A stretch of 64,000 bases of DNA from Meinhardsimonia xiamenensis (GTDB lineage Bacteria > Pseudomonadota > Alphaproteobacteria > Rhodobacterales > Rhodobacteraceae). This document shows, piece after piece, positions 29,388 to 32,291 of the stretch. The notes under the pieces were generated by a model. That model saw only the letters and a list, made by a program, of their open reading frames with translations, was not told the origin of the DNA and ran no database searches. Where the stretch lies: contig NZ_FNFV01000001.1 of assembly GCF_900102905.1 (NCBI RefSeq), positions 69,501-133,500 on the forward strand, given 5' to 3'. Both the position numbers and the translations under genes were made by a program. How positions within the stretch are numbered: position 1 is the first letter of the stretch; every line of letters begins with the position of its first letter.

Positions 29388-30014
29388 ATGAACATGCAGC
29401 GCCTTCTTCCCGGCATCATCGCCATGGCCGCCGTCGTCGTGGCCTCGAACATCCTCGTGCAATATCTCGTCGGCCAGTGGCTGACCTGGGGGGCCTTCAC
29501 CTATCCCTTCGCCTTTCTCGTCACCGACGTGATGAACCGTGTCTATGGCGCGGCCACCGCCCGCAAGGTGGTGCTTGCAGGCTTCGTCACCGGCGTGATC
29601 TGCTCGCTGATCGGCAGCCAGATTCAAGGCGAATTCGGCCCCCTCGTGACGCTCCGCGTGGCCATCGGCTCGGGCACGGCCTTCCTCGTGGCCCAGCTGG
29701 TTGACGTCTTCGTCTTCGACCGGCTGCGCAAGGGCGTCTGGTGGCGCGCGCCCTTCGTCTCCACCCTCGTCGGATCCACGCTCGATACGGCGATCTTCTT
29801 CTCCATCGCTTTCGCCGCCGCCTTCAGCTGGATCGAGCCCTCCAACGATGTGAGCTGGGCAAACGAGGTGCTGCCGCTGCTCGGGGTTGGGCCGGAGTCG
29901 CCGCTGTGGGTGTCGCTCGCCGTCGCCGACTGGATGGTCAAGCTCTCGCTTGCCCTGGTCGCGCTGGTGCCCTTCCGCCTCATCATCGGCTGGCTGCGGC
30001 CACAGGCTGTGTAA
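29388..30014 (+). CDS. Queuosine precursor transporter (YhhQ/VUT family)
   Basis: A 208-residue inner membrane protein of the YhhQ (DUF165, VUT_1) family, which imports queuosine precursors such as preQ0/preQ1 for tRNA modification. Six hydrophobic helices are visible. The family blocks are TYPFAFLVTDVMNRVYGAATA, GSGTAFLVAQLVDVFVFDRLR and VSTLVGSTLDTAIFFSIAF. The ATG at 29388 (MNMQRLL) is used; the ATG two codons later is possible. I looked for a preQ1 riboswitch in the 99-bp leader and saw none. The stop codon is directly followed by a promoter-like TTGACA of the next transcript. Confidence 0.93.
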   Translation: MNMQRLLPGIIAMAAVVVASNILVQYLVGQWLTWGAFTYPFAFLVTDVMNRVYGAATARKVVLAGFVTGVICSLIGSQIQGEFGPLVTLRVAIGSGTAFLVAQLVDVFVFDRLRKGVWWRAPFVSTLVGSTLDTAIFFSIAFAAAFSWIEPSNDVSWANEVLPLLGVGPESPLWVSLAVADWMVKLSLALVALVPFRLIIGWLRPQAV

Positions 30015-30020
30015 AAATCT

Positions 30021-30049
30021 TTGACATCCCCAAGATCTGTGCCAACCTT
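30021..30049 (+). promoter_or_regulatory. Candidate sigma-70 promoter of the arfB leader transcript
   Basis: A perfect TTGACA (30021-30026) begins 7 bp after the queuosine transporter stop. With 17-bp spacing the -10 would be AACCTT (30044-30049), a weak match. Transcription would begin near 30056 and run into the leader upstream of arfB. Confidence 0.45.
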
Positions 30050-30085
30050 GCCTTCAGCAGCAACCAGAAGAAAGGAGGTGGTCCA

Positions 30086-30142
30086 GTGTCGAGAGGGATG
30101 TTGGAGAGAGGTGCCGGAACAGTCGGAGGGCCGGTTGCCTGA
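30086..30142 (+). CDS. Possible 18-residue leader peptide upstream of arfB
   Basis: A tiny open frame, VSRGMLERGAGTVGGPVA, starts with GTG 7 nt after a textbook ribosome site (AAAGGAGGTG, 30071-30080), the strongest Shine-Dalgarno match in this part of the window. It has no family I recognise. Its 3' half covers one arm of a downstream hairpin (30123-30129), the geometry of transcription attenuation leaders. It is not enriched in one amino acid as biosynthetic leaders are. It could also be the coding part of a small independent RNA. Confidence 0.45.
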   Translation: MSRGMLERGAGTVGGPVA

Positions 30143-30171
30143 GGGCAGCCCCGAAGGCAGAACGCCTCCGA
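30123..30171 (+). promoter_or_regulatory. Attenuator-like hairpin in the arfB leader
   Basis: The outer stem pairs TCGGAGG (30123-30129) with CCTCCGA (30165-30171). Inside it, a 7-bp stem at 30133-30139/30144-30150 closes a TGAG loop. The second arm (CCTCCG) is also complementary to CGGAGG at 30211-30216, which is the foot of the terminator hairpin further on. It could therefore form an alternative antiterminator, giving two mutually exclusive folds. This is read by eye and has not been energy-tested. Confidence 0.45.
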
Positions 30172-30214
30172 TTGGGCCGAGGCTCTAACTGGCCCATCTC
30201 CGCGAGAACTCGGA

Positions 30215-30237
30215 GGGCCGCCTGAGGGCGGCCCTTT
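30215..30237 (+). terminator. Rho-independent terminator upstream of arfB
   Basis: An 8-bp GC stem (GGGCCGCC at 30215-30222 with GGCGGCCC at 30227-30234), a TGAG tetraloop and a short T-run. It ends 20 bp before the arfB start, so arfB needs either read-through or a promoter overlapping this site. The sequence CGGAGGGCCG...CCTGAGGGC.GCCC also occurs in the hairpin 80 bp upstream. Confidence 0.65.
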
Positions 30238-30257
30238 CCGCATTGTGGAGCGCGCGC

Positions 30258-30677
30258 ATGTTGCGCATCACCGACGACATCGCCATCGCCGACTGGGAGC
30301 TCACAGAGCAGTTCACCCGCGCCTCGGGCCCCGGCGGGCAGAACGTGAACAAGGTTTCCACCGCGGTGGAGCTGCGCTTCGCCGCCGAACGCTCCCCGCA
30401 CCTGCCCGAGCCGGTGAAACGGCGCCTGAAGCGCTTTGCCGGGCGGCGCTGGACCGACAGCGGCGAGATCGTCATCCGCGTCGAGGACACGCGCAGCCAG
30501 ACGCGCAACCGCGAGATCGCCCGCGAGCGGCTTGCCGAGCTGATCCGCAAGGCGCTGGAAAAGCCCAAGCGCCGCGTGCCGACGCGCCCCACCAAGGGCA
30601 GCATCGAGCGGCGGATTGCCGCCAAGAAGCGGCGCGCGGCCGTGAAGGCCCAACGCGGGCGCATCGAGGAGGAATAG
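30258..30677 (+). CDS. arfB: Alternative ribosome-rescue factor, aminoacyl-tRNA hydrolase ArfB
   Basis: A 139-residue ArfB (YaeJ/ICT1) protein. It releases nascent chains from ribosomes stalled on mRNAs without a stop codon. The catalytic GGQ is in ASGPGGQNVNK (G26-G27-Q28). The C-terminal 45 residues are a lysine/arginine-rich tail (RRVPTRPTKGSIERRIAAKK) that enters the empty mRNA channel. The ATG at 30258 gives the family N-terminus (MLRITDDIAI). It is preceded by an unusual leader with a tiny ORF, alternative hairpins and a terminator, and is followed by a clear symmetrical terminator. Confidence 0.95.
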   Translation: MLRITDDIAIADWELTEQFTRASGPGGQNVNKVSTAVELRFAAERSPHLPEPVKRRLKRFAGRRWTDSGEIVIRVEDTRSQTRNREIARERLAELIRKALEKPKRRVPTRPTKGSIERRIAAKKRRAAVKAQRGRIEEE

Positions 30678-30688
30678 CCGCACAACGA

Positions 30689-30717
30689 AAACGCCCCGCC
30701 GCGAGGGCGGGGCGTTT
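30689..30717. terminator. Bidirectional Rho-independent terminator
   Basis: A symmetrical 12-bp stem (AAACGCCCCGCC at 30689-30700 and GGCGGGGCGTTT at 30706-30717) with a 5-nt loop. There are A/T runs at both feet, so it can stop transcription of arfB on the plus strand and of the convergent peptide-transporter operon on the minus strand. Confidence 0.85.
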
Positions 30718-30737: not shown

Positions 30738-32291
30738 TCAGGCGAACCACCAGCGCTCCGCCATCCGCGCGTTGTCCATCTGCCAGAGATTGCCGATGAT
30801 CTCGGGCGTGGCGATCTGGTTGCTCACCCCCTGCACGTAGTTGGCGAACATCGGGATGATTACGCCGCCGTCGGTGCGCAGGATGTCCTGCATCTCGCGA
30901 TACATCGCCCGCCGCTTCTCACTGTCGAGTTCGGCGCGGGCGAGCTTCAGGAGCTCCTGGAAGCGGGCGCTGTCCTTGCTGTCCCACTGGCTGTCGTTCC
31001 AGGGCGCGCCCTCCTCATAGGCGGTGGAGAACATCCAGTCCTCCGTGGCCCGGCCCGACCAGTAGACGGCGCAGAAGGGCTTCTTCAGCCACACGTTCGA
31101 CCAGTAGCCATCCGCGGGCTCCTGGATGACGTTGATGTTGATCCCGCACTCCTTCGCCGAAGCCTGGTAGAGGAGCGCCGCATCCACCGCGCCCTCGAAG
31201 GCGGCGTTCGAGGCGCTCAGGTCGATGTCGAGCGAGTCGAGCCCGGCCTGCTTGAGGTAATACCGCGACTTGTCAGGGTCGAATTCGAGCTGCGGCAGGT
31301 CGGCGGCGAAATACTGGTTGGCCGGCCCGATCGGGTGGTCGTTGCCCACCATCCCGTGGCCGAGCAGGATCTTGTCGACCATCTCCTGCCGCTTGATGGC
31401 GTATTTCAGCGCCCGCCGCACGTTCACGTCATTGAACGGCGGCACATCCGTCAGCATCGCGAAGGTGTAGTGCTGGTTGCCCGTCACCTCCTGGATGCGC
31501 ACCGCCGGGTTGGCCTTCAGAAGCGCCTCGGTCTTGAAGTCGATGCGGTTGATCGCGTGCACCTGCCCGGTGAGGAGCGCGTTCATCCGCGCGGTGTTGT
31601 CGTTGATGGCGATGTATTCGATCGAGTCGAAGAAGCCCGCGCTGTCACCCTTGTAGTGGTTCGGGTAGCGCTTGGCGACCATCCGCACGCCGGGGTCGAA
31701 GCTTTCGACCTGATAGAGGCCGGTGCCGATGCCCTTGGCGATGGCCTCCTCGATCATCCCCGCCGGATAGATCAGGATGTGATAGTCCGACATCAGGTAG
31801 GGGAAGTCGGCGTTGCCCGACTGAAGCGTGAACTGCACCTGATGCTCGCCCAGCTTCTTCATCTCGGCGATCGCCGAGACAATGGGCTTCGCTGCCGACT
31901 TGGCGCCCTCGGCCACATGCATCTGCAGCGACTCGATCACGTCATCGGCGCCAAAGGACTTGCCGTTGTGGAAGGTCACGCCCTTGCGCAGGTTGAAGGT
32001 CCACACCTTGGCGTCCGGCGAGGCTTCCCAGCTTTCGGCGAGCTCGCCCACCAGCGTGCCGTCGGCGGCAACCATGGTGAGGCTGTCGAAGACCGCGCCC
32101 TGTGCGGAGGCGATCATGAACAGGTCGGAGTGCGTCCGCCCATCCCAGCTGTCGGAGGTGTTGGCGCCGGAAAGCCCGGCCTTGAAATGCCCGCCGCGCT
32201 TCGCCTGCGCGAAGACCGGCACCCCGGTGGCGGCAAGAACGCCCGCGGCAACCGAGCTGCCGAGAAGTCCGCGTCTGCTGATACGTGTCAT
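30738..32291 (-). CDS. Peptide/nickel-type ABC transporter substrate-binding protein
   Basis: A 517-residue periplasmic binding protein of the SBP_bac_5 family (DppA/OppA/NikA type). It has a twin-arginine signal (SRRGLLGSSVAAGVLAATG, cleavage near VFAQA). Family blocks: LAESWEASPDAKVWTFNLRKG, VTFHNGKSFGADDVIESLQ, PPFNDVNVRRALKYAIKRQ and the C-terminal RAMYREMQDILRTDGGVIIP. It delivers an oligopeptide or similar ligand to the permeases encoded upstream. It is the last gene of a four-gene operon, 81 bp after the ATPase gene; in most related operons the binding protein comes first. Two small hairpins lie in that gap (around 32323-32338 and 32348-32366). Confidence 0.95.
   Translation of the reverse strand: MTRISRRGLLGSSVAAGVLAATGVPVFAQAKRGGHFKAGLSGANTSDSWDGRTHSDLFMIASAQGAVFDSLTMVAADGTLVGELAESWEASPDAKVWTFNLRKGVTFHNGKSFGADDVIESLQMHVAEGAKSAAKPIVSAIAEMKKLGEHQVQFTLQSGNADFPYLMSDYHILIYPAGMIEEAIAKGIGTGLYQVESFDPGVRMVAKRYPNHYKGDSAGFFDSIEYIAINDNTARMNALLTGQVHAINRIDFKTEALLKANPAVRIQEVTGNQHYTFAMLTDVPPFNDVNVRRALKYAIKRQEMVDKILLGHGMVGNDHPIGPANQYFAADLPQLEFDPDKSRYYLKQAGLDSLDIDLSASNAAFEGAVDAALLYQASAKECGININVIQEPADGYWSNVWLKKPFCAVYWSGRATEDWMFSTAYEEGAPWNDSQWDSKDSARFQELLKLARAELDSEKRRAMYREMQDILRTDGGVIIPMFANYVQGVSNQIATPEIIGNLWQMDNARMAERWWFA

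Follow-up and report, generated by a model that had tools for sequence, protein, structure and literature searches.

A probable small RNA gene ahead of arfB in Meinhardsimonia xiamenensis, with a conserved 18-codon ORF and a 3' part predicted to mask the ORF's own start

The window analysed here, the whole 64,000-nucleotide stretch of Meinhardsimonia xiamenensis DNA, contains on its plus strand a short interval flanked by a queuosine precursor transporter gene upstream (29388..30014; TIGR00697, E 4.5e-27) and by arfB downstream (30258..30677, ATG at 30258; NF006718, E 1.1e-53), which adjoins the RNA gene described below and lies outside it. Further on, a terminator-like hairpin on the minus strand (30692-30709) lies between arfB and a convergent long ORF (30738-32291). 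A first-pass annotation had described the interval as a leader of arfB. Direct reading finds everything it listed in place: the TTGACA, the Shine-Dalgarno (SD) sequence, the 18-codon ORF, the two hairpin arms (TCGGAGG, 30123-30129, and CCTCCGA, 30165-30171), the terminator hairpin with its foot (CGGAGG, 30211-30216) and arfB itself. The features of the interval are as follows.

30056..30239, plus strand: the whole RNA gene, ~185 nt, with a predicted 5' end; covariance model R1 matches at 30070-30241; fold z -4.44
30021..30049, plus strand: sigma-70-like promoter element, TTGACA at 30021-30026 and a weak -10, AACCTT, at 30044-30049
30071-30078, plus strand: SD core, AAAGGAGG, by direct reading
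30071..30085, plus strand: extended SD, AAAGGAGGTGGTCCA, complementary to the 16S 3' tail
30086..30142, plus strand: 18-codon ORF from GTG (30086) to TGA (30142), peptide MSRGMLERGAGTVGGPVA
30074..30081, plus strand: 5' arm of helix P1 (the SD), paired with 30194-30201 in the minimum free energy (MFE) fold
30083-30087 with 30188-30192, plus strand: extension of P1, CCAGT with ACTGG, in the MFE fold
30194..30201, plus strand: 3' arm of P1, CCATCTCC, resembling the 16S anti-SD
30082..30105, plus strand: hairpin P2, TCCAGTGTC / GATGTTGGA, surrounding the start codon; alternative to the P1 extension; from RNAalifold on sets A1 and A2
30120..30174, plus strand: hairpin P4, CAGTCGGAGG / CCTCCGATTG, the hairpin of the first-pass annotation; both partners vary in 7 of 10 pairs across 26 sequences
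~30137-30158, plus strand: P5, nested in P4 and holding the stop codon; both partners vary in 6 of 8 pairs across 26 sequences
30213..30239, plus strand: terminator hairpin (hairpin ~30213-30236), GAGGGCCGCC TGAG GGCGGCCCTT, with a short run of T; both partners vary in 9 of 13 pairs

The region looks like a separate, autonomous RNA gene with its own TTGACA element and terminator hairpin, and its transcription probably starts near 30056. We compared it with 104 loci of its family, probably the Rhodobacteraceae, obtained from 109 hits by merging those with identical first 200 nt (7 of 116 sequences gave no hit). TTGAC occurs at -80 to -30 of the SD in 71 of them, against 4.2 expected under base shuffling, and in 68 of these 71 it lies at -48 to -51. 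In the window, the consensus scan did not call a sigma-70-type promoter at this place under its rule because the -10 is weak. The strict scan likewise called no plus-strand terminator in the window, because only TTTCC (three T, then CC) follows the stem; T runs are longer in most relatives, and the strict rule is satisfied in 97/104 family loci. The fold of the region is far more stable than chance (MFE -92.8 vs a shuffle mean of -73.7, sd 4.3, giving the z of -4.44; 0/200 shuffles as good). The promoter spacer (30027-30043) recurs in a AACACAAAATCTGTG-like form in many of the 25 family loci printed, and the window copy has diverged; this recurrent spacer might be an operator.

The SD is very strong: AAAGGAGGTGGTCCAG, absent from the first-pass list, can base-pair with the 16S 3' end CTGGATCACCTCCTTT, one of the pairs being G-U; that end was taken from two of the eight relatives searched (a match of this kind was not obtained from the window's own assembly). 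GGAGGTG is invariant in all 90 family loci whose ORF has 18 codons, the search pattern having itself included it with up to 2 mismatches. Exactly 18 codons are found in 90 of the 104 loci, and the start codon is GTG in 98 and ATG in 6; the pattern was biased to GTG starts and left the stop untouched. Codon 19 is TGA in 40 loci, TAG in 35, TAA in 15 and TGG in only 1, where independent columns would give 16.2 TGG (Fisher p 6e-12, uncorrected for shared ancestry). Termination of translation therefore appears to be under selection, since TGG is depleted although the stem alone would tolerate it. The claim that the tiny ORF matters is supported by the conservation of both its start and its stop.

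The peptide is another matter. It is quite unlikely, in our view, that the RNA merely encodes a functional 18-residue peptide as a plain small mRNA, with a structure that serves stability only. Such an mRNA would account for the start, the stop and the N-terminal residues VSR..LE.GVGT that recur within the family, and for a synonymous fraction of 0.50 in codons 2-11 of the family ORFs vs 0.19 and 0.17 in the other frames. However, that excess comes mostly from codons 2 (TCN) and 11 (GGR), with none in codons 12-18, and we rejected selection at the peptide level on this ground; per-codon synonymous counts gave no clear sign of amino-acid selection. Also against it, ORFs of other lineages have 14 to 31 codons and encode different peptides, which diverge past the first two residues. 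In 15 Sphingomonadales-type ORFs the synonymous fraction is lower in frame 0 (0.19) than in the other frames (0.38 and 0.45).

The strongest long-range pairing in the MFE fold, unlisted in the first-pass annotation, joins the SD (30074-30081) to 30194-30201, so that the RNA is predicted to mask its own initiation region. A full 7-bp partner of the SD is present at 85-165 in 91/104 family loci, compared with a mean of 39.7 and a maximum of 49 in 30 shuffled sets; partner places, like the base-10 counts, are approximate, because the best-scoring partner in the window was the P4 arm and not the pre-terminator arm. The commonest partners are CATCTCC (31), CACCTCC (27) and CGCCTCC (23). On A2, a set of 26 sequences picked for a CATCTCC/CGTCTCC-type arm, 93.4% of cells pair, vs 37-56% with the partners displaced by 1 to 3 columns; double changes are seen in 23/55 pairs vs 12.0 in shuffles, distributed as 9 in the terminator, 7 in P4, 6 in P5 and 1 in P1. 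Counts for P1 on A2 lean towards pairing because the set was selected on that arm; the test of P1 is the one on all 104 loci. P2 pairs in 99.1% of A2 cells, with zero pairs changed on both sides. Set A1 comprises the window and 75/83 loci, the odd-looking L032, L035, L055, L062, L077, L080, L091 and L093 being excluded; its consensus fold lost P1 because the aligner set the CCTCC block in the wrong register. Beside the stop codon, the apex of P5 (30137-30158) shows a recurrent motif like GGGCAGCCC/GGGCAACCC, and a similar motif, GAGCAGCCTC, occurs in some Rhizobiales-type loci.

The strand that would mask the SD resembles the 16S anti-SD, and its action in trans is plausible. Our second choice, a possibility well short of even odds, is a trans-acting dual-function sRNA in which the 16S-like CCATCTCC or another segment pairs with the SDs of targets, the ORF being incidental or modulating exposure. 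The anti-SD-like strand is present, as are the promoter element and terminator hairpin of a putative autonomous unit, both conserved, and Pos19 of R. sphaeroides, an sRNA with an sORF, provides a precedent in the available text of its report (PMC5036791). Yet in the predicted fold this strand is paired to the SD, the U tail is short, and conservation of the stop suggests that translation matters.

The proposal of the first-pass annotation was that a ribosome stalled on the ORF frees the second hairpin arm, which then pairs with the terminator foot, opens the terminator and allows transcription of arfB. Within the family the neighbourhood is stable, since arfB lies within 1 kb downstream in 82/104 loci and the transporter upstream on the same strand in 94/104; the distance from terminator to arfB is at most 40 nt in 29/71 loci (start extrapolated, with an ATG in 53/71). 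AGA and ACA are among the codons of the ORF that the window's genes seldom use, a point in favour of the attenuator, though this may be no more than constraint on the RNA. We nevertheless rejected attenuation of arfB as the main function, and hold such an attenuator to be very improbable, for the following reasons: (i), across 84 loci the switching pair between second arm and terminator foot does no better than chance (mean z 0.09, with 4% under -2); the arm hairpin itself does (mean z -1.47). Of the conservation expected in relatives, the ORF is kept, at 18 codons in 90/104, and the alternative pairing, the antiterminator of this scheme, is not. (ii), the RNA persists without adjacent arfB. 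In 22 family loci the search of the first kilobase downstream did not reveal arfB (in 4 it is 1.7-2.8 kb away); there the 18-codon ORF is present in 16/22, the masking helix in 16/22 and the strict terminator in 19/22, vs 78/82 for the terminator where arfB is near. This retention favours the other suggestion of that annotation, an independent small RNA. (iii), in the stretch that corresponds to 30234-30258, TANNNT lies at exactly -12 of arfB in 16/89 loci, vs a maximum of 6 at any offset in 200 shuffles, and an SD-like tetramer precedes arfB in only 21/89. As -12 is the position expected for a leaderless message, this suggests leaderless arfB mRNAs from an own promoter in part of the loci. 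Some read-through into arfB could still occur in this lineage.

Beyond the family, the neighbours of the RNA vary by lineage, a further point against the attenuator. No arfB was found in the ~1.5 kb flanks of 29 loci from other families of the class (28 of the 29, one flank being too short), and among the 80 named-genome loci taken from the matches listed, arfB lies within 1 kb in 14, every one with a window-type ORF. At one Hoeflea locus, the best match of the upstream neighbour is an acetate-CoA ligase, and at one Bosea locus, that of the downstream neighbour is RNase R, both with scores below the model cut-offs because 400 residues were supplied. Four Rhizobiales-type loci (L157, L179, L195, L224) share an upstream acetate-CoA ligase cluster, and loci of Bosea and Methylobacterium (L173, L181, L223) share a downstream RNase R cluster, each cluster being named from one of its pieces.

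Covariance model R1, built from 26 sequences including the window, matches 257/295 family genomes at E<=0.001 (227/260 of those of good quality), once in 238 and twice in 19; 38/295 gave no match. A 20-base pattern with up to 2 mismatches is found in 236/295 family genomes, mostly once, with few matches to the reversed pattern. A DNA search matched 18/41 genomes, in some of which (G005, G010, G023) the arfB part is on another contig. In the class, R1 matches 27/387 genomes, 6 of them from the window's family, and among 85 preselected loci from elsewhere its best matches fall on the element (L142, E 2.9e-7; L211 and L124, ~1e-5). A scan of named genomes for AAAGGAGGTGNTCNNRTGTC gave at least 118 stretches (80 of the matches listed were used first, and 38 were added for a repeat test); those listed are mostly from alphaproteobacteria, including Rhodobacterales, Hyphomicrobiales, Sphingomonadales, Caulobacterales, Acetobacterales and others. 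Some look like chance: L154, L162, L168 and L218, which are outside the class or unassigned and run into long frames, L191 (a Gemmatimonadota record, 21-codon frame) and L260 (Azospirillum, 59 codons). For L014, L264, L265 and L266 the approximate search yielded no position for the element, and for L267 it gave one on the wrong strand; AAAGGAGGTG and a GTG start can nonetheless be made out by inspection in L264, L265 and L267. L116 is absent from the later sets, 29 of 30 loci being kept.

In other orders, codons 2-5 pair with the pre-terminator segment. After removal of the window type, this helix scores a mean of 16.09 vs 13.21 permuted (sd 0.30, maximum of 300 permutations 14.09; n=76). In previously unused loci the score is 16.03 vs 13.46 (sd 0.47, maximum 14.83; n=29, one of them, L261, of window type). 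At one helix position in 42 CATNGTY loci, the bases are compensatory in most (T-A 20, G-C 13, C-G 1), against C-A in 1 and T-G in 1, with the partner not found in 6. Inside the window's own family the codon 2-5 helix gives a null result (11.60 vs 11.44). Complementarity to the SD, measured by shuffles, has a mean z of -1.9 in the family set and of -1.3 and -1.1 in two wider sets, which still include window-type and control loci. By peptide-prefix groups, four groups lie above shuffles (z 3.4 to 5.4), and there is no excess in the Sphingomonadales type (z -1.8, n=14) or in 5 controls (z -0.6). A predicted fold-back theme is thus shared across lineages, in a register that differs; since the masking helix differs, the function may differ too.

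Among named families, Rfam CC2171 (RF01867), a Caulobacter sRNA, comes closest; its model matches the window RNA over its full length with 28.6 bits, below the gathering cut-off of 75 bits (E 0.0029 against the window, 4.2e-4 in the whole genome). The model finds 61/289 class genomes at E<=0.001, 9 of them above the cut-off, and among 14 control genomes Caulobacter vibrioides only. Nine genomes are hit by both CC2171 and R1: four of the family together with G539, G380 and G456 at the same place, and G036 and G440 at different places. We regard the element as related to CC2171 without being a member, because the window is below the cut-off, only 2/18 loci from other orders pass it, and the two models fall on the same place in 3/5 outside genomes.

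Based on these data, we propose that the locus carries a translated RNA whose 3' part folds back and masks its own start, encoded by an autonomous gene that forms a family branch of a CC2171-related type; we give this reading a probability of about 0.7. Comparison brings out the promoter element, the very strong SD, selection on the start and stop of the ORF, the hairpins, the terminator hairpin and the long-range helix; we infer that this organism transcribes and translates the RNA, that the clamp shuts off translation, and that something downstream follows when the clamp opens. We consider masking of the start by the 3' part the likeliest mechanism. During transcription, 30S subunits would load on the long SD and translate the ORF; the 3' part, once made, would fold back onto the translation start, and the finished RNA would be locked against translation unless held open by a ribosome, by a processing event or by a partner. 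Opening would expose the anti-SD-like strand, free to pair in trans. Unless this RNA is an exception, ribosome profiling in Caulobacter counts against translation of the ORF, the available text reporting no translation of ncRNA regions (PMC4117421). In S. meliloti, some sORFs are reported to fall within annotated sRNAs (PMC10117765).

It is tempting to extend the proposal to an RNA switch, class-wide and mostly single-copy, for sensing free ribosomes and restraining initiation on other mRNAs or holding ribosomes back: an SD that can pair with most of the 16S 3' tail would, when loaded with a 30S subunit, keep the RNA open and expose a mimic of that tail, and when ribosomes are scarce the RNA would close on itself. 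This extension is, however, a long shot. The self-masking RNA itself is a structured RNA present in 257/295 sampled family genomes, with apparent relatives in several orders of the class, and it is nearly unstudied, going by the literature searched. Should the ORF be translated and the 3' part mask its start, the RNA would lend itself as a compact and tractable system for studying how RNA folding is coupled to translation, and would go unannotated in many genomes.

Several known systems resemble the window RNA in part. Hok and aapA1 are fold-back-inhibited mini-mRNAs, in which the 3' part folds back on the initiation region. The window RNA shares this arrangement, comparative evidence pointing to a long-range helix with predicted masking of the initiation region, as in fold-back type I toxin mRNAs. 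Unlike in hok and aapA1, its peptides look charged and polar, and inspection of the translations revealed no short hydrophobic toxic peptide. As in trp-type ribosome-mediated attenuators, a gene is preceded here by a short ORF, by hairpins and by a terminator hairpin; the conserved start and stop of the ORF are an indirect sign that it may be translated. Unlike in those attenuators, the antiterminator pairing proposed for the locus is not conserved, and the downstream gene is not constant. Like CC2171, the window RNA has a 5' AAAGGAGGTGATCCAGTGTC block and a terminator hairpin; it differs in its middle hairpins and in an SD-masking helix in place of the codon 2-5 helix, and no ORF is mentioned for CC2171 in the accessible parts of the literature found. 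Our searches on CC2171/RF01867 returned, in those parts, two table rows only, one in the Rfam 15 paper (PMC11701678) and one for the Mesorhizobium candidate MH_s33 (PMC5596092), and the RNA could not be placed among the published sRNAs of the order in the literature searched. Finally, according to the available text of its report, Pos19 has ORFs of 150 or 135 nt and an RpoE promoter and was detected in R. sphaeroides strains only (PMC5036791); the window RNA, like Pos19, carries an sORF, with a predicted promoter and terminator of its own, but, unlike it, has a TTGACA element and is widespread.
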